Assembly: GCA_029862185.1 (NCBI GenBank)
Contig: JAOTXX010000033.1
Coordinates: 1 to 41,856, forward strand
Direction of reading: 5' to 3'
Source of the DNA: Myxococcales bacterium
GTDB taxonomy: Bacteria > Myxococcota_A > Polyangia > Polyangiales > Houyiibacteriaceae
DNA: 41,856 bases
The notes beneath the pieces are model-generated. The model made no database searches. It was given only the letters and a program-made list of their open reading frames with translations, and had not been told where the DNA came from. A program made the translations under genes and the position numbers. Each line of letters starts with the position of its first letter. The stretch's first letter is position 1. Below are positions 16,082 through 36,091 of the stretch, in pieces.

Positions 16082-16984
16082 GTGCCCTTCAAGGACCAGA
16101 CGACCAGCGCCAGTCAGACCGTCCTCACGGAGGTCGGGGAAGCTCGGGCGCCGCGGCCGTCAAACCAGAACGGCTGTCTGATCGTCATTTACGGACATGA
16201 GATGGGCCGGCGTGTGCAGGTCGGCACTGAACCTTTGACCATCGGGCGTTCACCCAACTGCCAAATCCCCATCGACCAAGAGAGCGTCTCGCGCAAACAC
16301 TGCCGGATTCAGTTCGAGGACGGAGAGTTCCTGGTTCGCGACCTCGGCTCGACGAACGGGACCTACGTGAACGACGACCTGGTGGAACCGCAAGGTCGGC
16401 TTCGACACGGCGATCAGCTCAAGGTTGGGCGCACCATTTTGAAGTTCATCGTCGGAGACGACGTGGAAGTCCAGTATCACGAAGAGATCTACCGGCTGAT
16501 GACGACCGATGGTCTCACGCAGCTCAACAACAAGCGATACTTCGACGAGATGCTCGACCGGGAGGTCGCGCGCGCAAAACGATACAAGCGGACCTTTTCT
16601 CTGCTGGTCTTCGACCTCGATCACTTCAAGAGCGTCAACGACCGCTTCGGTCACTTGGCAGGCGATGCCATCCTGCGGCAGCTCGGCGCGATCCTGCTCG
16701 GCAGGCTTCGCGTCAACGATGTGCTGGCCCGAATCGGTGGCGAGGAGTTTGCCTTGATCACCCCCGAGGTCAGCCTCGATGGTGCCACAGAGCTCGCAGG
16801 CAAAATCAATCGCTTGATCGGAGACGCCCGTTTCGAGTTCGAGGGTTTGGCGGTCAACATCACGGTGAGCGTCGGTGTGGCCGAGTGGAAAGAGGACTAC
16901 GAAGACGCCTGGGACCTGTTCAAGGCCGCAGACGACAAGATGTACGAAGCCAAACGAGCCGGCCGAAACCAAGTCTGCTCCTAA
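16082..16984 (+). CDS. Diguanylate cyclase with N-terminal FHA domain
   Basis: A 300-residue cytoplasmic protein. Residues 33-125 are an FHA domain with the phosphothreonine-binding residues GRS (55-57), SRKH (70-73) and TNG (91-93). Residues 135-298 are a GGDEF domain with GGEEF (219-223), metal-binding FDLDHFK and the inhibitory I-site RVND (210-213) exactly five residues before GGEEF. It should make c-di-GMP from two GTP and be feedback-inhibited, with input through a phosphorylated protein partner. The open frame extends to 14864, but that part is antisense to the transpeptidase gene. GTG 16082 precedes the first FHA strand, while the next ATG (16202) would cut into the domain. No good ribosome site is seen at GTG. 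Confidence 0.9.
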   Translation: MPFKDQTTSASQTVLTEVGEARAPRPSNQNGCLIVIYGHEMGRRVQVGTEPLTIGRSPNCQIPIDQESVSRKHCRIQFEDGEFLVRDLGSTNGTYVNDDLVEPQGRLRHGDQLKVGRTILKFIVGDDVEVQYHEEIYRLMTTDGLTQLNNKRYFDEMLDREVARAKRYKRTFSLLVFDLDHFKSVNDRFGHLAGDAILRQLGAILLGRLRVNDVLARIGGEEFALITPEVSLDGATELAGKINRLIGDARFEFEGLAVNITVSVGVAEWKEDYEDAWDLFKAADDKMYEAKRAGRNQVCS

Positions 16985-24515: not shown

Positions 24516-26351
24516 ATGGCTCAGGGGATTGCGTCGACGAGGCCTGCGGCCACGGGGTTACACCCAGGGGCTGTGGTTGGAGGAAGATTCGAGGTCGTCG
24601 ATCAGGTCGACGAAGACCCGCAGGGCGTCGTCTGGTCTGCCAAAGACCAGCAGACCAAGCGCTCGATTCTGGTCCGCGTCATCAAGCCGGAAATGGTCCC
24701 ATCGGCGGCGGCGCCCGAGTTTCGGGAAGCCTGCCGCGCTGCGGCGACGCTAACACACCGCAACATCGCACGGGTCTTCGGCGTCGGCCGCACTCCGAAG
24801 GGCGAGCACTTCGTCGCCAGCGAATGGATCGACGGGGCTCCACTCTCAGATTTCATTCAGGCCCGCGACCGCGACGGCGACCCAATTTCGTTGCGCGGTG
24901 TTTACAATGTCATCGCGCACCTCTGCAGCGCGCTCAGCTACGCGCACAAAAAGGGCCCGCACGGAACACTGCGCCCAAGCGTCGTCTCGGTGACACGGGG
25001 CGGCCGCGTCAAAGTTCGCGACTTCGGCGTCGGCCAAGTGCTTTTGGGGGCCGCTGGTCCCAGCGCCTTCAGGGACTCCGACCACGCCTGCTTGGCACCG
25101 GAGGTCAAGCGCGGCGAACCCGCCACGGCACGGAGCGACGTGTTTGGAATTGGCGCCATCCTCTACGAGCTCCTGACCACACGCAAGCCCGGCTCCGACT
25201 TCGTCGCGCCGTCGGAAGCTCGTGACGACATTCCGCCGGAAGTCGATCGCATCTTGCTCGACTGCTTGGCGCCCGACCCCGCAGATCGGTTTGACTCTCC
25301 CGAATCGGTGCGTAACGCCCTTCTGCCTTTTGTGAAGGAGGCCAACTCGTCGGCTCCGCCGCCGGACACTGGCATCAGCGTCGACATCGACATCATCAAC
25401 TCGGTGGCGCCGCCTCCGGAGGTCGAGATTCCGATGATTTCCTTGGCGCCTCAGGCATCGTTTTCGCCGCCGCCTCCTCCTCGGCGTGGCCTGATGAGCC
25501 TGATCAACCAGCTCTCTTCGGATTCAAAGCAGCGATGGATGGTAGCGCGGGACAAGATGGACCACGGTCCGTTCAGTGCGCGCGAGCTCATCGAGCGGCT
25601 CAACGTTGGCGGCTTCGCTGGCGATGACGCCACGTTCAACATCGATACGGGCGAGCGCAGACCGCTACGAGAATGGCCGCAGTTTCGCGAATTCATTTTG
25701 CAGCGGGAACACCAAGACACCGCAGCGGCCGAAGCAGCGGCGCGTGTCCACGCGCAGAAGTCGGAAAAGCGCTCGTCGGCGATGAAGTTGCTGATCGCCG
25801 TTTCGGTCGTTGGCCTCGTGATGATTGCAGTTGGCGGTTTCCTTCTGTCCCGCTCGAGCGACGCTCGCGAGATAGCGGAGACCGAGCTCGACGACCTGTT
25901 CAAACTGGGGAAGATCACGACAGGTGAGGCCGGCCTGCTTCCGGACCACCCCACGCGGTCACGAAAGCGCAGCTCGAGCGCTGCCCGGTCGACCCGCAGC
26001 AGCGGCTTCTCCAGCTACGACGATGCGATGAGCCGCGCCATGGAGCTCGGTGATGCTTCGCAATCCGGCGGCGAGGGACGCCTCACCGGCGGTCAGGTCG
26101 CTAGCGTGATGAATCGCAACCTCAATCGCTTTTACAATAGCTGCGTGCTTCCCGAGGTGAAGAGCGGCGGCAGACCGGGGAACGTCAAGGTCGACCTCGC
26201 GATCGCGGGCAACGGCTCGGTGCTCGGCGCCACGGTCCACGGCGGCAGCGCGGGCTTCCAGGGCTGCATGGGCAACCAGATCAAGAACGTCCGCTTCCCG
26301 ACATTTGGCGCGCCAAGAATGGGCGCGCGCTACAGCTTCACGGTCAACTAG
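24516..26351 (+). CDS. Pseudokinase / GYF_2-like / transmembrane / AgmX-PglI-like C-terminal fusion
   Basis: A 611-residue membrane protein. Residues 20-275 have a Ser/Thr kinase fold, but the glycine loop is lost (DEDPQGVVW), the beta-3 Lys is Arg54, HRD is HGT (149-151) and the following Asn is Val156. DFG (169-171) and the APE-like motif remain, so it is probably catalytically dead yet folded. Residues 339-395 (RWMVARDKMDHGPFSARELI) resemble a GYF_2 domain, a likely protein-binding module. A membrane helix at 423-445 leads to a periplasmic C-terminal domain (about 518-611: VMNRNLNRFYNSCVLPEVKS...GNVKVDLAIAGNGSVL...FQGC) resembling the TonB-like AgmX/PglI C-terminal domain of myxobacterial motility proteins. 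ATG 24516 follows GGAG with almost no spacing. Confidence 0.85.
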   Translation: MAQGIASTRPAATGLHPGAVVGGRFEVVDQVDEDPQGVVWSAKDQQTKRSILVRVIKPEMVPSAAAPEFREACRAAATLTHRNIARVFGVGRTPKGEHFVASEWIDGAPLSDFIQARDRDGDPISLRGVYNVIAHLCSALSYAHKKGPHGTLRPSVVSVTRGGRVKVRDFGVGQVLLGAAGPSAFRDSDHACLAPEVKRGEPATARSDVFGIGAILYELLTTRKPGSDFVAPSEARDDIPPEVDRILLDCLAPDPADRFDSPESVRNALLPFVKEANSSAPPPDTGISVDIDIINSVAPPPEVEIPMISLAPQASFSPPPPPRRGLMSLINQLSSDSKQRWMVARDKMDHGPFSARELIERLNVGGFAGDDATFNIDTGERRPLREWPQFREFILQREHQDTAAAEAAARVHAQKSEKRSSAMKLLIAVSVVGLVMIAVGGFLLSRSSDAREIAETELDDLFKLGKITTGEAGLLPDHPTRSRKRSSSAARSTRSSGFSSYDDAMSRAMELGDASQSGGEGRLTGGQVASVMNRNLNRFYNSCVLPEVKSGGRPGNVKVDLAIAGNGSVLGATVHGGSAGFQGCMGNQIKNVRFPTFGAPRMGARYSFTVN

Positions 26352-26663: not shown

Positions 26664-27740
26664 TTACGGTTTCAGCACCGCGGCCACCTGCGGAATTCTC
26701 GAGAAGCTGTCCTTGTCAGCGGCCTTTTCCAATGCGTCCTCTGGGGCGACTTTGCCAGCTTTCACGAGCTTCTCGAGGACGGAGTCGATGCTCTGCATCC
26801 CGTGCGATCCGCCGCTCTGAATGAGGCTGGTGAGCATGGAGGTTTTGGCTTCGCGGATCGCCGCCGCGACACCGGAGGTTCCGATCAAGATTTCCTGGGC
26901 CGCGATTCGGCCGCTTCCATCTGCCTTGCGCAAGAGCTGTTGGGCCACGATGCCGGCAAGTGAATCGGCTAGCATGCCCCGGATTTGCGGTTGCTGGCTC
27001 GCGGGGAACGCGTTGACGAAACGATCGATCGTCGCGGGCGCCGAATTGGTGTGAACCGTGGCAAAGATCAAGATGCCGAAGCTCGCGAGCTGAAGCGCCA
27101 TTTGCATCGTTTCACGGCCGCGGAGCTCGCCCACGAGGATCACGTCGGCGTTCTCCCGTCCGGCGCTGCGAATCGCATCGGCGAAGCTCGGCGTGTGATC
27201 CCCCACTTCGCGGTGGGTAATCTGGCACTTCTTCGGCGTATGAACGAACTCGACCGGGTCTTCGATGGTCAGGATGTGCCCTTCCCGGTTGCGGTTGATA
27301 TGATCGAGCATGGCCGCGAGCGTGGTGCTCTTTCCGCTACCCGTCGGCCCCGTCACGAGCACCAATCCGGCGCGACGCTCGGCCAACTCGACGACCGCAT
27401 GCGGAAGCCCGAGCTGCTCGGCGGTGAGAATCTCGCTTGGAATCGTTCGAAACACCGCGCCCGGACCGGTCGTCTTGTAATAATAGTTGGCTCGGAACCT
27501 CGCCTTGTCTTGGTATCCGTATGCGAAGTCGAGGTCACGATAGGCGTGGAAGTAGCTTCGCCGGTCCTCGTTGACGATCTCGTCCATGAGCTGTGCGATC
27601 GTGCGGTGGTCGAGGGGCCGGTCATCGATGGCCACGAGCTCGCCCTTGGCGCGGATCATCACCGGGTAGCCGATCGAAAGGTGAAGGTCGGACCCTCCTC
27701 TTTGGAGCAATACGTCGAAATAGCGATCGAGCGCTGGCAC
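26664..27740 (-). CDS. pilT: Type IV pilus retraction ATPase
   Basis: A 358-residue hexameric secretion-type ATPase that depolymerises type IV pili for twitching motility. The N-terminal PAS-like domain contains GGSDLHLSIGYPVMIRAKGE. Then come Walker A (GPTGSGKSTT), the Asp box (LTIEDPVEFVH), the Walker B region (DVILVGELRGRETM) and the His box (IFATVHTNSAPATIDRFV). The C-terminal AIRE segment is in the usual place. The start is GTG 27740 (MPALDRYFDVLL), 3 bp after the stop of the upstream ATPase gene. The stop is next to repeat copy B. Confidence 0.93.
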   Translation of the reverse strand: MPALDRYFDVLLQRGGSDLHLSIGYPVMIRAKGELVAIDDRPLDHRTIAQLMDEIVNEDRRSYFHAYRDLDFAYGYQDKARFRANYYYKTTGPGAVFRTIPSEILTAEQLGLPHAVVELAERRAGLVLVTGPTGSGKSTTLAAMLDHINRNREGHILTIEDPVEFVHTPKKCQITHREVGDHTPSFADAIRSAGRENADVILVGELRGRETMQMALQLASFGILIFATVHTNSAPATIDRFVNAFPASQQPQIRGMLADSLAGIVAQQLLRKADGSGRIAAQEILIGTSGVAAAIREAKTSMLTSLIQSGGSHGMQSIDSVLEKLVKAGKVAPEDALEKAADKDSFSRIPQVAAVLKP

Positions 27741-27743
27741 GGC

Positions 27744-29438
27744 TTAGTCGCCCTTCTTCGAAAAGAGATTGCGCATCGTGCCCTTGGTGCTCTGTGCGGG
27801 TGACGCCTGGGGCCTTGACATAGCTTGCTTGGGCGAGCGGTCGATGACGCGGGGATCGTCGGCAAAGGCCTTCGCTGTCTCGATCGAGATGACGCCCGAG
27901 GACAGGAGCTCGTTGAGCGAGTCTTCGATGCGAATCATTCCGAACGCGCGACCGCGCTGGAGTAGGCTCGGAAGCTGGAACAGCTTGTCGTCGCGAATGA
28001 GCGACCACAGTGCCATCCCGCCAGTCAGAAGCTCGACCGCGACGACCCTCCCATTCCCGTCCTTCCGCGGCACCAGGCGCTGGCTCACGACAAACTTGAG
28101 GACACCCGCCAAGGTCGATCGGACCTGCGATTGGTCGTCGGGAGGGAACATGTCGATCAAGCGGCCGATCGTTCGCGCGCCTGACGGTGTGCTCATCGTC
28201 GCAAAGACGAGGTGTCCGGTTTCCGCAGCTTCGAGAGCTTTCTCGACCGTTTCGCGATCGCGGAGCTCGCCGATTGCAATCACATCCGGATCTTCACGGA
28301 GCGAGCCCTTCAAAGCGGAATGGAAACTCTTGGTGTGGATTCCGACTTCGCGCTGACTGACGATCGCCTTCTTGATTGGATGAATCACCTCAACCGGGTC
28401 CTCGACGGTAATGATGTGCACACTCCGTTCGCTGTTGAACAGGTCGACCAAGGCAGAAAGGGTCGTGGTCTTTCCGGCTCCGTTGGGACCTGAGACCACC
28501 ACCAAGCCCTGATGGTAGTTCAGCATCTGACGCAGCTCGCTCGGAAGACCGAGTGAGTCGAGCGTTGGAGGCTCCGGCATGATGAGACGGAAGCAACCTT
28601 TGATGCCGCTTCGCTGCTTGTTCACGTTGACACGCAGGCGGCCAACGCCTTCCAGCTGGCAGGCAAAGTCCGCGTACCCGAGCTCTTCTAACTGCTTTGC
28701 ATTGCGCTCGCTGAGAAGCGGCATGACCAGACCGCATGCCTGTTCGTCTGACAGTACCGACCCGGCCGCGGCCAGGCGCCCGGCACAGCGAAGCCGCGGC
28801 GGCTGTCCCGACATGATGTGAACGTCGCTAGCAGCTCGATCACGCGCCTGGACGAGGAGCGCACGCAGTCCCGCCGGTGCCTGGACCGGAACATCCGACC
28901 GCACGAACTCACCGAGTGGCGAGTCCGCCGCGGGCGGTCGATACGAGACCGTGAACTGAGGTGCCTCGATCGGGGGCGCCGGAATCGTCACGGAGCCAGG
29001 GACCGCAGCACGATCCTTGGCGGGCATCGGCGGAGGCTCATACGACTCGACCGTTTGATTCTGCTCCACCGCGTTAGCCGGGAGAGGGACGCGAAGCGGC
29101 GCAACGGCGCCAATCGGTGTCGCTGGCAACTCGGTGTTCCGTCCGGGGCGACGCACGCGCAACAAGAGCATCTCGCCCGAGCGAGCCACGGTGACGATGT
29201 ACTCGATGCCGTCGATTAGAGTCACGGTCGGGGCGGACGCACCATCGTGACTCGGCACGAGACTCTGCAGAGGCGTGTCACTGACCAGCTTGAGAATGTG
29301 CCTCGCACTCATCGGCTCGCTGGTCACTGCCCTGGGCTTCCCCCGCTTCTTCGCCGTCGCGGCAGCGCCGCTTTGGAACACGATCTCGGTCACATCAGCC
29401 CGATCGAGGTACTGCAGGAAGTCTTGGAGTTGACTCAC
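27744..29438 (-). CDS. PilT/PilU-like ATPase with a 200-residue N-terminal extension
   Basis: A 564-residue protein. The C-terminal 370 residues are a PilT-family ATPase: SDVHIMSGQPPRLRCAGRL, Walker A GPNGAGKTTT, Asp box ITVEDPVEVIH, Walker B region DVIAIGELRDRETV and His box VFATMSTPSGARTIGRL, where the usual second His is replaced (MST rather than VHT). Residues 1-200 are not part of PilT and consist of a small folded part plus a Pro-rich linker; the C-terminal 35 residues are basic and Ser/Pro-rich. GTG 29438 (MSQLQDFLQYLD) is preferred; a GTG 27 bp upstream (29465) would add nine residues that overlap an AT-rich, promoter-like stretch. A PilU-like accessory motor role is inferred from tandem arrangement with pilT. 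Confidence 0.85.
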   Translation of the reverse strand: MSQLQDFLQYLDRADVTEIVFQSGAAATAKKRGKPRAVTSEPMSARHILKLVSDTPLQSLVPSHDGASAPTVTLIDGIEYIVTVARSGEMLLLRVRRPGRNTELPATPIGAVAPLRVPLPANAVEQNQTVESYEPPPMPAKDRAAVPGSVTIPAPPIEAPQFTVSYRPPAADSPLGEFVRSDVPVQAPAGLRALLVQARDRAASDVHIMSGQPPRLRCAGRLAAAGSVLSDEQACGLVMPLLSERNAKQLEELGYADFACQLEGVGRLRVNVNKQRSGIKGCFRLIMPEPPTLDSLGLPSELRQMLNYHQGLVVVSGPNGAGKTTTLSALVDLFNSERSVHIITVEDPVEVIHPIKKAIVSQREVGIHTKSFHSALKGSLREDPDVIAIGELRDRETVEKALEAAETGHLVFATMSTPSGARTIGRLIDMFPPDDQSQVRSTLAGVLKFVVSQRLVPRKDGNGRVVAVELLTGGMALWSLIRDDKLFQLPSLLQRGRAFGMIRIEDSLNELLSSGVISIETAKAFADDPRVIDRSPKQAMSRPQASPAQSTKGTMRNLFSKKGD

Positions 29439-29606
29439 GGTTCCAATATTATCCCTAAATTCCACTGTGTATCAAATCACAACGGCTTTCTCTGCGCGTT
29501 CACCGCATCGGGTTCCTGTGAGGCTGGAAATTCAACAAAAGCTTCGGTTTGACAGCACTCCGCAGGCGTTGCTAGCGTTTCGTGTTCCGAAAAGCATCGT
29601 TAGCCC

Positions 29607-29646: not shown

Positions 29647-30378
29647 ATGTCCGAGGAAAAAGAGTCTTCCGTCCTCGTCAATCTTCGCGAGCTCATGAAT
29701 CTCGAAAAAGATCGGGTTCGCAGCGAAGAAGAGGAGCGTCTGCAGCGCGAAGCAGCGGAGCGTGAACGCATCGCGGCCGAAGCCCAGGCACGGCAGGAAG
29801 AGGAAGCCGCGCGACTGCGCGCCCAAGAGGAAGCGCAGCAAGCCGAAGCAAAACGAATCCGCGAAGCCGAAGAGCTGGCCGCGCGAGAGCGCGAAGGGGC
29901 AGAATTGCGCGTCCGTTTGGAGCAGGAAGCGCGCGAGAAGGCGGAGGCCCACGCCCGCATGCTCGATCACGAGCGCGAGCTGGCAACGATTAGTGCGCAG
30001 CAGCGTAAGGGTGTGCACCCCGGCTTGCTGGCAGCAGCGGCAGTCTTGGTCCTTGGCCTTGGCGTCGGCTCCTACTTTGGATACTACAAGCCAATGATCG
30101 AACATCGTGAGGCAGCTGCGTTGGCGGCGAAGATGGACGCCGAGCGCGCCGCGCGTGAAGCGGAACAGGCCCGTGCCGCCGCAGAGCTCGAAGCGCAGAA
30201 GCGGGCCGAAGCCGAAGCAGAGCAGGCCCGTCTCGCGGAACAAGCAAAGCGCGAGGCACAGGCTGCTGCTGCGGCGCGCAGGGCCGCGGCTCCGAGCACC
30301 CCAGCGAAACGGCGCGGAAGCTCGAAGCGACGCAAGGCCGACACCGACGATCCACTGGCGGGGCTGGACAGCCTCTAG
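29647..30378 (+). CDS. Coiled-coil membrane protein of unknown function
   Basis: A 243-residue protein. Residues 15-117 are an almost uninterrupted charged helix (Glu/Arg/Ala/Gln repeats such as LQREAAERERIAAEAQARQE), predicting a long coiled coil. One membrane helix follows at about 124-143 (GLLAAAAVLVLGLGVGSYFGYY), then a second Ala/Glu/Lys-rich helix (about 150-215), and a basic tail ending KRRGSSKRRKADTDDPLAG. The layout resembles TolA-like or gliding-associated scaffold proteins, but I recognise no family. The frame is open upstream to 29467; ATG 29647 is preferred because the preceding segment looks non-coding and promoter-like. pyrF starts 29 bp downstream, so they may be co-transcribed. 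Confidence 0.78.
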   Translation: MSEEKESSVLVNLRELMNLEKDRVRSEEEERLQREAAERERIAAEAQARQEEEAARLRAQEEAQQAEAKRIREAEELAAREREGAELRVRLEQEAREKAEAHARMLDHERELATISAQQRKGVHPGLLAAAAVLVLGLGVGSYFGYYKPMIEHREAAALAAKMDAERAAREAEQARAAAELEAQKRAEAEAEQARLAEQAKREAQAAAAARRAAAPSTPAKRRGSSKRRKADTDDPLAGLDSL

Positions 30379-34148: not shown

Positions 34149-35162
34149 TCAGCGCCACTTCAGCTTTTGCTTGCCCGGGTCCGTAATGACCTTTGCGTCT
34201 TCCGGATCGGCGGGCTCCTCTTCGGGGTCTTCACCGGCCATTTCCTGCGCAGCCTCCGCCGGATACAGCCGCACGGCTGTCACCGTGTCGATGCGAACCA
34301 GCTCGGACCCGGAGTCGGTTTGGGTCCTGATGCGCATCTGCGAAGTCGACTCGGCCTCGGAAATTGACGTGAAGTACTTCAGGCGAACTGAGGCCGATCC
34401 GATGATCGATGCTTGGTACGCCTCGAGTCGGCCGTTGCCGATGGACTGGGGCTGAGCGGTTTGGCGCGCCGTGATCTGCAGCTGAAGCTGATCCTTATCT
34501 ATCTTGTCGATGCGATAGGTCACGACCTGGTCGACCCAGACACCGGAGAACTGAAGCCGGCGCTCGACCTCCCACTGCGCCCGCGCCCCGAGGGGCTCGT
34601 CGGGAAAGGGCACGGTGAGAAGCGCGCTTCGAATGTTGCCAAGCATCGTGCGCAAAGTCGGTGGCACGTCTTCCATGCCGCGGAACTCACCTCGGCGGAC
34701 TCGTCCTTGCGCGTCCATTTCGCTCCAACCTCGTATTTGCAAGAGAGGCGCCAACATCTGTTCCATCTGCTCGCGCTGAGCCGGACTCATCTTCTTGGCC
34801 ATCTTCGAAATACGGACCTGGGTGATCTGAATGGGATGGCGAATGAACCCCTGAGGCGTCGGCTCGGCGGGGCCCATTTTCACCTCGAGTTGGACAGGCG
34901 GAATACGCCTCTGCGAACCCTGACCTTGAGCTTGCATCGTTTGCCCGCGCACGAGCTCCAGGAAAAGCGTCTCGGTTTGCCCGGGCGCAACCCTGTAGCG
35001 AAGCGGAACCCTCGGCGTCATCCCTGCATCTACGACGCGAATCTCAGGCAGAACCCGCTGCGGCGGACCAGGGTCGGCCACCTGCACCGTCTGCGGCTGG
35101 AATTGCGTTCGGCAAGAAGTCGTCGCCAGCAAGACGCCGGCGAGCATCACGATACGAAACAT
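34149..35162 (-). CDS. Predicted lipoprotein, paralogue of the 35168-36091 product
   Basis: A 337-residue protein with a short signal peptide and a lipobox-like end (LLATTSC, Cys17). The mature part has the pattern VVDAGMTPRVPLRYRVAPGQ, then a beta-rich region with NIRSALLTVPFPDEPLGARA, QWEVERRL and VTYRIDKIDKDQLQLQITAR. These align with the neighbouring lipoprotein (LVDPGQTPLEALRYAIPPD; NVRSAIATIPLPLEPVGIGA; VWEVRRPL). The C-terminus is acidic (GEDPEEEPADPEDAK) with a basic end. No known family recognised. It starts 5 bp after the stop of its paralogue and is the last gene of the envelope cluster. Confidence 0.8.
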   Translation of the reverse strand: MFRIVMLAGVLLATTSCRTQFQPQTVQVADPGPPQRVLPEIRVVDAGMTPRVPLRYRVAPGQTETLFLELVRGQTMQAQGQGSQRRIPPVQLEVKMGPAEPTPQGFIRHPIQITQVRISKMAKKMSPAQREQMEQMLAPLLQIRGWSEMDAQGRVRRGEFRGMEDVPPTLRTMLGNIRSALLTVPFPDEPLGARAQWEVERRLQFSGVWVDQVVTYRIDKIDKDQLQLQITARQTAQPQSIGNGRLEAYQASIIGSASVRLKYFTSISEAESTSQMRIRTQTDSGSELVRIDTVTAVRLYPAEAAQEMAGEDPEEEPADPEDAKVITDPGKQKLKWR

Positions 35163-35167
35163 GAAAT

Positions 35168-36091
35168 CTACCTTTCCTTCTTCGAAATCAGTCGTAGGAC
35201 GGTCCTTCGGGTGGACATCAAAGGCTCTGTCTTTTCAGGCGAAACCAGCGCGATATCAGCCGCGGAGCTGGCCTCGAGCGACGCTTCGAGCGCCACCGGG
35301 AGGCCGAGGTCGGCAAGTGCGTGGCCCCGCGCATGCATCTCGTAGCTGCGAACGTGCATCTCGAGCTCGGGGTTGAGGTCGGCCACTTGAGGAGCGGCTG
35401 TCTGTTGCACCGTGACTGTGACCCGAAATCGATCACCGACGCGATCGGTCAGCTCGTACCGCGTCACTTGGGTCACCCGTGCGCTCCAAATCCGAAGGGG
35501 CCGTCGAACTTCCCAGACCGCGCCGATGCCTACTGGCTCGAGAGGCAACGGGATGGTGGCGATTGCCGAACGCACGTTTCCGATCGTGATCGCAACGCGG
35601 GGGTGGATGCGCTCTTGACCTTGCGCCCAGGGAACGTCCGCATCGACGACGATGCCCTGCGTGTTGATATCGAAGCGTCCACGCATTCCACGAAGCGCTG
35701 CCACGCCCTGGTCGACCTCTTGGGTTTGACGGTCGGTCACGCCGTCTGGCAGCACAGACTTCGCTTGGGAGATGCGCAAGATGTAGCGGAACCCTTGCGG
35801 AATGAGGACGGTCGGGCCCGCGTGCATGCGGAGCGTGAAGCCGGGAAGCACACCGAATGCATCCTCGGAATCCTCGGTTTCCTCGGCTGCAACGTCGACA
35901 TCGCGGATGTCCAGCAAGGTTTTGACCACGGTGTCAGGCGGAATCGCATAGCGCAGCGCCTCGAGCGGTGTTTGCCCTGGATCGACCAGCCTGACCGAAA
36001 GCTCTGGCGGGGGCGGCGTGGTCTTGTTCTTCTTGCAGCCAACTGTCGCAAGCGAAGCGAAAAGGCAGGCACTCAGGATGATATTCTTCAT
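35168..36091 (-). CDS. Predicted lipoprotein of unknown function
   Basis: A 307-residue protein with a clear lipoprotein signal (MKNIILSACLFASLATVGC, Cys19) followed by KKN. A Lys at +2 would not trigger inner-membrane retention by the E. coli Asp+2 rule, so it may reach the outer membrane. The mature region is beta-rich and shares three blocks with the 34149-35162 product, the strongest being NVRSAIATIPLPLEPVGIGA followed by VWEVRRPLRIW. It includes an acidic stretch (VAAEETEDSEDA). The two genes are 5 bp apart and look like a tandem duplication that has diverged. It follows the 36186-37685 barrel gene after 94 bp. Confidence 0.82.
   Translation of the reverse strand: MKNIILSACLFASLATVGCKKNKTTPPPPELSVRLVDPGQTPLEALRYAIPPDTVVKTLLDIRDVDVAAEETEDSEDAFGVLPGFTLRMHAGPTVLIPQGFRYILRISQAKSVLPDGVTDRQTQEVDQGVAALRGMRGRFDINTQGIVVDADVPWAQGQERIHPRVAITIGNVRSAIATIPLPLEPVGIGAVWEVRRPLRIWSARVTQVTRYELTDRVGDRFRVTVTVQQTAAPQVADLNPELEMHVRSYEMHARGHALADLGLPVALEASLEASSAADIALVSPEKTEPLMSTRRTVLRLISKKER

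Follow-up and report, generated by a model that had tools for sequence, protein, structure and literature searches.

The gliding machinery of Myxococcus xanthus includes the protein GltJ/AgmX (PMC3169522). It carries an N-terminal zinc ribbon as its cytoplasmic binding module, together with a GYF_2 domain, one transmembrane (TM) helix and a periplasmic TonB-like tail (NCBIfam NF033761). The zinc ribbon and GYF domain of GltJ bind MglA/MglB. A literature search returned no publication on the GltJ GYF domain with MglA, nor on a TonB-bearing myxobacterial pseudokinase.

M. xanthus also uses a needle-less type III secretion system (T3SS*) in prey lysis, which comprises SctD, SctJ, SctI, SctQ and SctRSTUV, and lacks the secretin and the needle (PMC10433427, PMC12075869). 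SctJ and SctD make up the inner ring, and Abby and Rocha found needle-less systems to be limited to Cystobacterineae (PMC3459982).

Bacterial Ser/Thr pseudokinases are almost unstudied. The described families ActPs1-3, GLW, CP1, DYD and DLHK differ from the one reported here in their defining motifs and taxa, and the 2025 review of these proteins, which includes none of the present build, mentions neither myxobacteria nor GYF or TonB parts (PMC12599244). EssB/YukC of type VII secretion is a membrane pseudokinase with a structural role in a secretion machine (PMC12599244). M. xanthus is reported to have 11 pseudokinases among its 99 kinases (PMC6791715), and its EcpK, which is of the tyrosine type and has a different fold, provides a precedent for a scaffolding pseudokinase (PMC12004946).

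Here we describe a gene found in a window of 41,856 nucleotides (the whole stretch of DNA analyzed, contig JAOTXX010000033.1 of a Myxococcales bacterium), the product of which has the build of GltJ/AgmX, except that a pseudokinase takes the position of the zinc ribbon. The two share a cytoplasmic binding module, a GYF_2 domain, a single TM helix and a periplasmic TonB-like tail. However, the window protein is no GltJ, because both the zinc ribbon and the glt cluster context are missing: its gene is surrounded by a DEAD helicase gene, a PilT-like pair and the pyrF region, and the GltJ model was matched by just 3 of 34 members of the pseudokinase family. The resemblance to SctD lies in a cytoplasmic signaling-type domain, one TM helix, a periplasmic part and, in relatives, a gene that adjoins sctJ. 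In contrast to SctD, which has FHA and ring-building domains, the window protein combines a pseudokinase and a GYF domain with a TonB/TolA-type domain and is kept without a T3SS. Yop-YscD_cpl, the model of the cytoplasmic FHA domain of SctD, had no match among the 34 family members.

Domain organization and topology

The initial annotation proposed a pseudokinase joined through a GYF_2-like module and one membrane helix to a domain resembling those of myxobacterial gliding proteins, and all four parts could be located (Table 1). A single hydrophobic helix spans residues 419-447 of the 611-aa protein, with its core at about 424-446. The basic flank AQKSEKRSSAMK lies before it, so that an N-in/C-out topology would be expected.

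Table 1. Coordinates of the pseudokinase gene, its domains and key residues, and the adjacent gene pair (positions in the window).
Feature	Position	Strand	Basis
Whole gene: pseudokinase, GYF_2-like, TM, TonB/TolA-like C-terminal domain	24516..26351	+	611 aa, ATG start; orthologues in the order
Pseudokinase domain (17-275)	24564..25340	+	Pfam Pkinase E 3.9e-16; PknB alignment
Degenerate glycine loop VDQVDEDPQGVVWS (28-41)	24597..24638	+	PknB and family alignment
Arg54 at beta-3 Lys position	24675..24677	+	PknB alignment; Lys 0/60
HGT (149-151) at HRD position	24960..24968	+	PknB alignment; HG 60/60, Asp 0/60
Val156 at metal-binding Asn position	24981..24983	+	PknB alignment; Asn 0/60
DFG (169-171), present here, kept in part of the family	25020..25028	+	Asp 33/60
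Glu196 of APE	25101..25103	+	invariant, 60/60
Arg258, subdomain XI, partner of APE Glu in kinase fold	25287..25289	+	invariant, 60/60
Proline-rich linker (276-335), weakest constraint	25341..25520	+	dN/dS
GYF_2-like domain (336-400), DHGP invariant in the order	25521..25715	+	profile matches and hhalign
Single TM helix (about 424-446), predicted N-in by positive flank	25785..25853	+	hydrophobicity and flank charge
TonB/TolA-type C-terminal domain (498-611), predicted periplasmic	26007..26348	+	AgmX/PglI model, hhalign, Foldseek, VIA
Cys543, candidate disulfide partner	26142..26144	+	conserved 59/60
Cys584, candidate disulfide partner	26265..26267	+	conserved 59/60
PilT-like ATPase gene pair (T2SSE family), at the site where relatives carry sctJ	26664..29465	-	unconserved outside the genus

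The GYF_2-like module is weak on the window sequence alone, for which Pfam gave no support. It is backed by Pfam GYF_2 matches in 3 of 34 family members, by an orthologue from the same genus, which scored 21.2 bits (E 7.9e-4), and by hhalign, which related the GYF region of the family to true GYF_2 domains at a probability of 95 (E 3e-8). Likewise, the NCBIfam AgmX/PglI tail model fell below its cut-off on the window sequence (E 1.1e-3) and was matched by 25 of 34 family members (best 1.7e-8). The genome itself encodes two proteins made of a zinc ribbon, a GYF_2 domain, a helix and an AgmX/PglI-type tail (L080:8376-10283 and L081:8976-10673, both on the minus strand), and the GYF and tail of the window protein are related to theirs (hhalign E 3e-8 and 7e-10, respectively). 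These comparisons bear out the likeness to AgmX/GltJ-type gliding proteins put forward earlier. A stand-alone lipoprotein paralogue of the C-terminal domain (L082:7655-8236, G000:C25; SYEDAM...LGDAS...) was also observed and has matches in several genus members. A partial GYF_2 match lies within a 788-aa frame (G000:C11:9338-9445, in L088), possibly another GYF protein.

AlphaFold2 models were built from 8 close sequences. The whole protein reached a pLDDT of 40, with the C-terminal domain alone confident, and a model of residues 329-611 was again confident in this domain only (pLDDT about 88); the GYF fold therefore rests on sequence profiles. VIA placed the C-lobe of the full model, of low confidence in that region, on kinases with a Z of about 10. 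As modeled, the C-terminal domain has a TonB/TolA fold: the best 22 Foldseek matches were all TonB/TolA C-terminal domains (E 0.01-0.2), and so were the best 20 matches in VIA (best Z 7.7, about 80 residues). The domain is probably disulfide-bonded in the periplasm, with the two cysteines of Table 1 as candidate pair.

The kinase fold is preserved without its catalytic residues

The closest solved relatives of the N-terminal domain are PknB-type kinases (M. tuberculosis PknB, phmmer E about 5e-24). Alignment with PknB confirmed each of the losses listed in the initial annotation, namely the glycine loop, which reads VDEDPQGVVW with Gly37 as sole remaining glycine, the beta-3 Lys, the HRD Asp and the metal-binding Asn. 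The window protein thus has none of the last three residues expected of an active Hanks-type Ser/Thr kinase. The alpha-C Glu is still present, and so are D169-F170-G171 and A194-P195-E196, which had both been noted, but retention of DFG is not family-wide.

Conservation was counted in an alignment of 60 full-length homologues from genomes of the same order. The beta-3 position is occupied by Arg (42), Trp (11), His (3), Tyr (3) or Gln (1), and never by Lys. The HRD Arg is replaced by Gly in all 60, and the HRD Asp and the metal Asn are found in none, so that no homologue of the same architecture in the order combines HRD with Lys, as would a family in which the window copy had merely decayed. 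The Asp of DFG is present in 33. Conversely, His149-Gly150, Glu196, Asp208 and Arg258 are invariant. Glu196 and Arg258 form the ion pair that holds the kinase C-lobe together; because these residues are invariant while the catalytic ones are gone, the kinase fold appears to be preserved and catalysis is not. The domain is therefore conserved as a folded, non-catalytic kinase domain, as initially supposed, and the loss of catalytic residues is an ancestral trait of the family. Judging from these residues, the protein would be expected to lack kinase activity in vitro. However, some so-called pseudokinases bind ATP or show unusual chemistry, and the window protein still has DFG and the alpha-C Glu.

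MviN/ActPs3, GLW, DYD and other bacterial Ser/Thr pseudokinases likewise have a PknB-type fold, lost motifs and often a C-terminal TM helix (PMC12599244). The window family differs from them by a loop that is mostly HG-[A/T]-x-R-P (HG-[A/T] in 54 of the 60 homologues, in contrast to GLW in place of HRD in the family of that name) and by a beta-3 position that is mostly Arg or Trp.

Selective constraint was estimated by the NG86 method from six close pairs within the genus of the window. dN/dS ranged from about 0.01 to 0.14 in the N-lobe and from 0.04 to 0.16 in the C-lobe. Both lobes are as constrained as the GYF and C-terminal domains, and in all but one of the six pairs their values were lower than that of the linker. 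The kinase lobes are thus under strong purifying selection.

Distribution and later reduction of the kinase domain

We searched 188 genomes of the phylum, using the part from the GYF domain to the C-terminal domain as a single-sequence query; most genomes compared are metagenome assemblies. Full-length homologues were found in eight families outside the order. The HRD Asp is missing in all 15 aligned homologues from these families, and the beta-3 Lys and metal Asn are kept in four of them (families f23 and f31); among distant members of the same architecture, then, a few retain the Lys and none the HRD Asp. Members from family f12 begin at the kinase C-lobe and form a single clade (support 100/100). 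The whole kinase is missing in four sequences from families f25, f2 and f1, in which the GYF domain, the helix and the C-terminal domain are kept. The tree, weakly resolved in that region, requires at least two changes to account for the kinase losses, which are later reductions in side lineages.

A stepwise catalytic decay can thus be read across the phylum. No member found has the HRD Asp, most also lack the Lys and Asn, and some have further lost DFG, the N-lobe or the entire kinase. Because the N-lobe or the whole kinase was dropped while the remainder was kept, we infer that the GYF domain, TM helix and C-terminal domain form the constant core of the family and that the pseudokinase, being dispensable in places, would be a dedicated docking module.

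The pseudokinase gene is paired with sctJ in most relatives

Sixty-seven genomes outside the genus of the window carry the pseudokinase protein. Counted genome by genome, 53 of them have a gene for a YscJ/FliF-family (SctJ-like) lipoprotein directly downstream on the same strand, at a median distance of 99 bp between the matched stretches (one outlier at 1490 bp). The two genes nearly abut or overlap in loci L049, L063, L066 and L070. Most copies of the lipoprotein have a lipobox and a C-terminal TM helix, which is the topology of SctJ. Fourteen genomes are exceptions: seven have no gene for this lipoprotein (G029, G042, G047, G059, G087, G089 and G090), and in seven it lies on a different contig. 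In four of the latter (G049, G054, G065 and G080) the pseudokinase gene sits near a contig end, so that linkage cannot be judged. The kinase-less or C-lobe-only versions that were checked (L136, L137, L076 and L079) retain the sctJ neighbor. SctJ-like genes are also present in other classes and families, where they are located away from the pseudokinase gene, except in G225.

Genomes with the lipoprotein also carry a FliP/SctR of non-flagellar type, plus a flagellar one where flagella exist, and the flagella-less genomes tested have single-copy SctV and SctU genes on other contigs or far off. As a control, the surroundings of sctR were compared in five genomes from four families, and no common neighbors were found within 16-20 kb. 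Because the pair persists while the surroundings of sctR are scrambled, these results suggest that selection holds the pseudokinase gene and sctJ together. Set against another T3SS gene without fixed neighbors, this pairing offers a handle on how myxobacterial needle-less T3SSs are built, and on the role of a dead kinase at the membrane.

Genomes G019-G095 contain a dispersed non-flagellar T3SS with single SctJ, SctR, SctV and SctU genes at separate loci, SctJ adjoining the pseudokinase gene in L040-L079 and SctR being found in L179-L183 and L185. This dispersed system sits in an order where none was found previously (PMC3459982). We also observed an uncharacterized lipoprotein gene between the DEAD helicase and pseudokinase genes (L047:5229-5999, L056:5461-6258) in families f1, f3 and f9, which is missing in the window.

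The genus of the window has lost the T3SS genes

In contrast to the relatives, the window has no sctJ neighbor. SctJ (PF01514) and SctR (PF00813) are absent from all 19 genomes of its genus, and SctV and SctU from the four of these that were tested; the T3SS genes have been lost in this genus. Family f11, its neighbor in the tree, likewise has no SctJ. The pseudokinase protein is present in 18 of the 19 genomes, the exception being a genome that is 80% complete. SctJ therefore cannot be the only partner, and since the protein is kept under strong constraint in a genus without SctJ, it must have a role independent of it. This T3SS-independent role is probably the older one, because distant members of the phylum have the protein without an adjacent sctJ.

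Among members of the genus for which enough flanking sequence is available, all but L038 have the PilT-like gene pair next to the pseudokinase gene; it occurs there at no locus outside the genus. The upstream DEAD helicase gene and the downstream TolA-like, pyrF and rlmB genes are common to several families. The motility or surface-signaling context initially deduced from the PilT-like genes and an FHA diguanylate cyclase was thus abandoned as a functional clue: this neighborhood is not conserved, about 7.5 kb separate the FHA-GGDEF gene from the pseudokinase gene, and the conserved neighbor elsewhere is the SctJ-like lipoprotein gene.

Proposed function and alternative explanations

We consider it probable that the protein is a bitopic inner-membrane, non-catalytic trans-envelope adaptor that is tied to SctJ in most relatives and independent of the T3SS in the genus of the window. 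A physical connector rather than an enzyme is the probable role because the dead kinase is kept across the phylum and mostly beside sctJ. In the cytoplasm, the dead but folded kinase domain and the GYF_2-like domain would dock a partner through binding instead of phosphorylation. The single helix would link these modules to the TonB/TolA-type domain, which may in turn dock onto an envelope partner in the periplasm. In most relatives this role probably falls to the SctJ-like lipoprotein whose gene lies directly downstream and which is the ring protein of the scattered non-flagellar T3SS; in the genus of the window, where the apparatus is gone, the protein would keep a T3SS-independent role. A conformational signal might pass this way from a cytoplasmic partner to the envelope, as the initial annotation suggested. 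EssB/YukC, despite belonging to a different system, may serve as a precedent by analogy.

The linkage with sctJ within an otherwise scattered T3SS, a topology equal to that of SctD, the inner ring that SctJ and SctD form together (PMC3459982) and the sctJ neighbor retained by the reduced versions examined would also fit a structural component that helps to form the inner-membrane ring in a dispersed needle-less T3SS, taking the place of SctD beside SctJ, and that was exapted in the genus of the window after the apparatus was lost. This is unlikely, as the protein persists throughout nearly all of a genus without SctJ or SctR, distant lineages carry it without a linked sctJ, and the TonB/TolA fold of its C-terminal domain is not known to be a ring-building motif. 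We can only tentatively extend the idea to a general proposition, that phylum-wide membrane pseudokinases of Myxococcota are the inner-membrane partner of SctJ, standing in for SctD, in dispersed needle-less T3SSs outside Cystobacterineae, and are kept on for a different task at the envelope where the apparatus has been lost, as in the genus of the window.

The pseudokinase might instead act on or with active Ser/Thr kinases, as an allosteric partner or a substrate (in back-to-back PknB-type dimers or in the manner of MviN) that recruits an FHA protein once phosphorylated. Its nearest solved relatives are of PknB type, MviN provides a precedent (PMC12599244), and active kinases and FHA proteins are numerous in myxobacteria. 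However, the usual dimer face is the N-lobe, which is lost in family f12, and other members have lost the entire kinase, with the remainder kept in both cases; this makes the reading rather improbable. A role in motility or surface signaling, exerted together with the FHA diguanylate cyclase and the PilT-like ATPases encoded next to it, is very improbable. Although the build is GltJ-like and the PilT-like pair is adjacent within the genus, that pair is on the opposite strand and accompanies the gene nowhere else, and zinc-ribbon proteins of GltJ type are encoded separately in the same genome. Finally, the lost catalytic residues and the loss of domains in side lineages are what a former kinase decaying without function would display, but this is scarcely credible: low dN/dS in both lobes contradicts a decayed copy, the reading frame is intact in relatives, the residues that hold the fold are invariant, and the protein is present phylum-wide.

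Other observations in the window

A coiled-coil, single-pass TolA-like protein (ESSVLVNLRELMNLEKDR...) is encoded at 29647-30378; several families share this gene downstream of the one for the pseudokinase. The FHA domain of the FHA-GGDEF protein (16124-16984) also matches Yop-YscD_cpl (E 2e-16); the genome that encodes it has no T3SS genes. Three lipoprotein-like proteins, two of which are encoded in tandem in the window (34149-35162 and 35168-36091) and the third at L080:4556-5626, resemble one unnamed family and share a DAG..PR..LRY motif recognized by eye.
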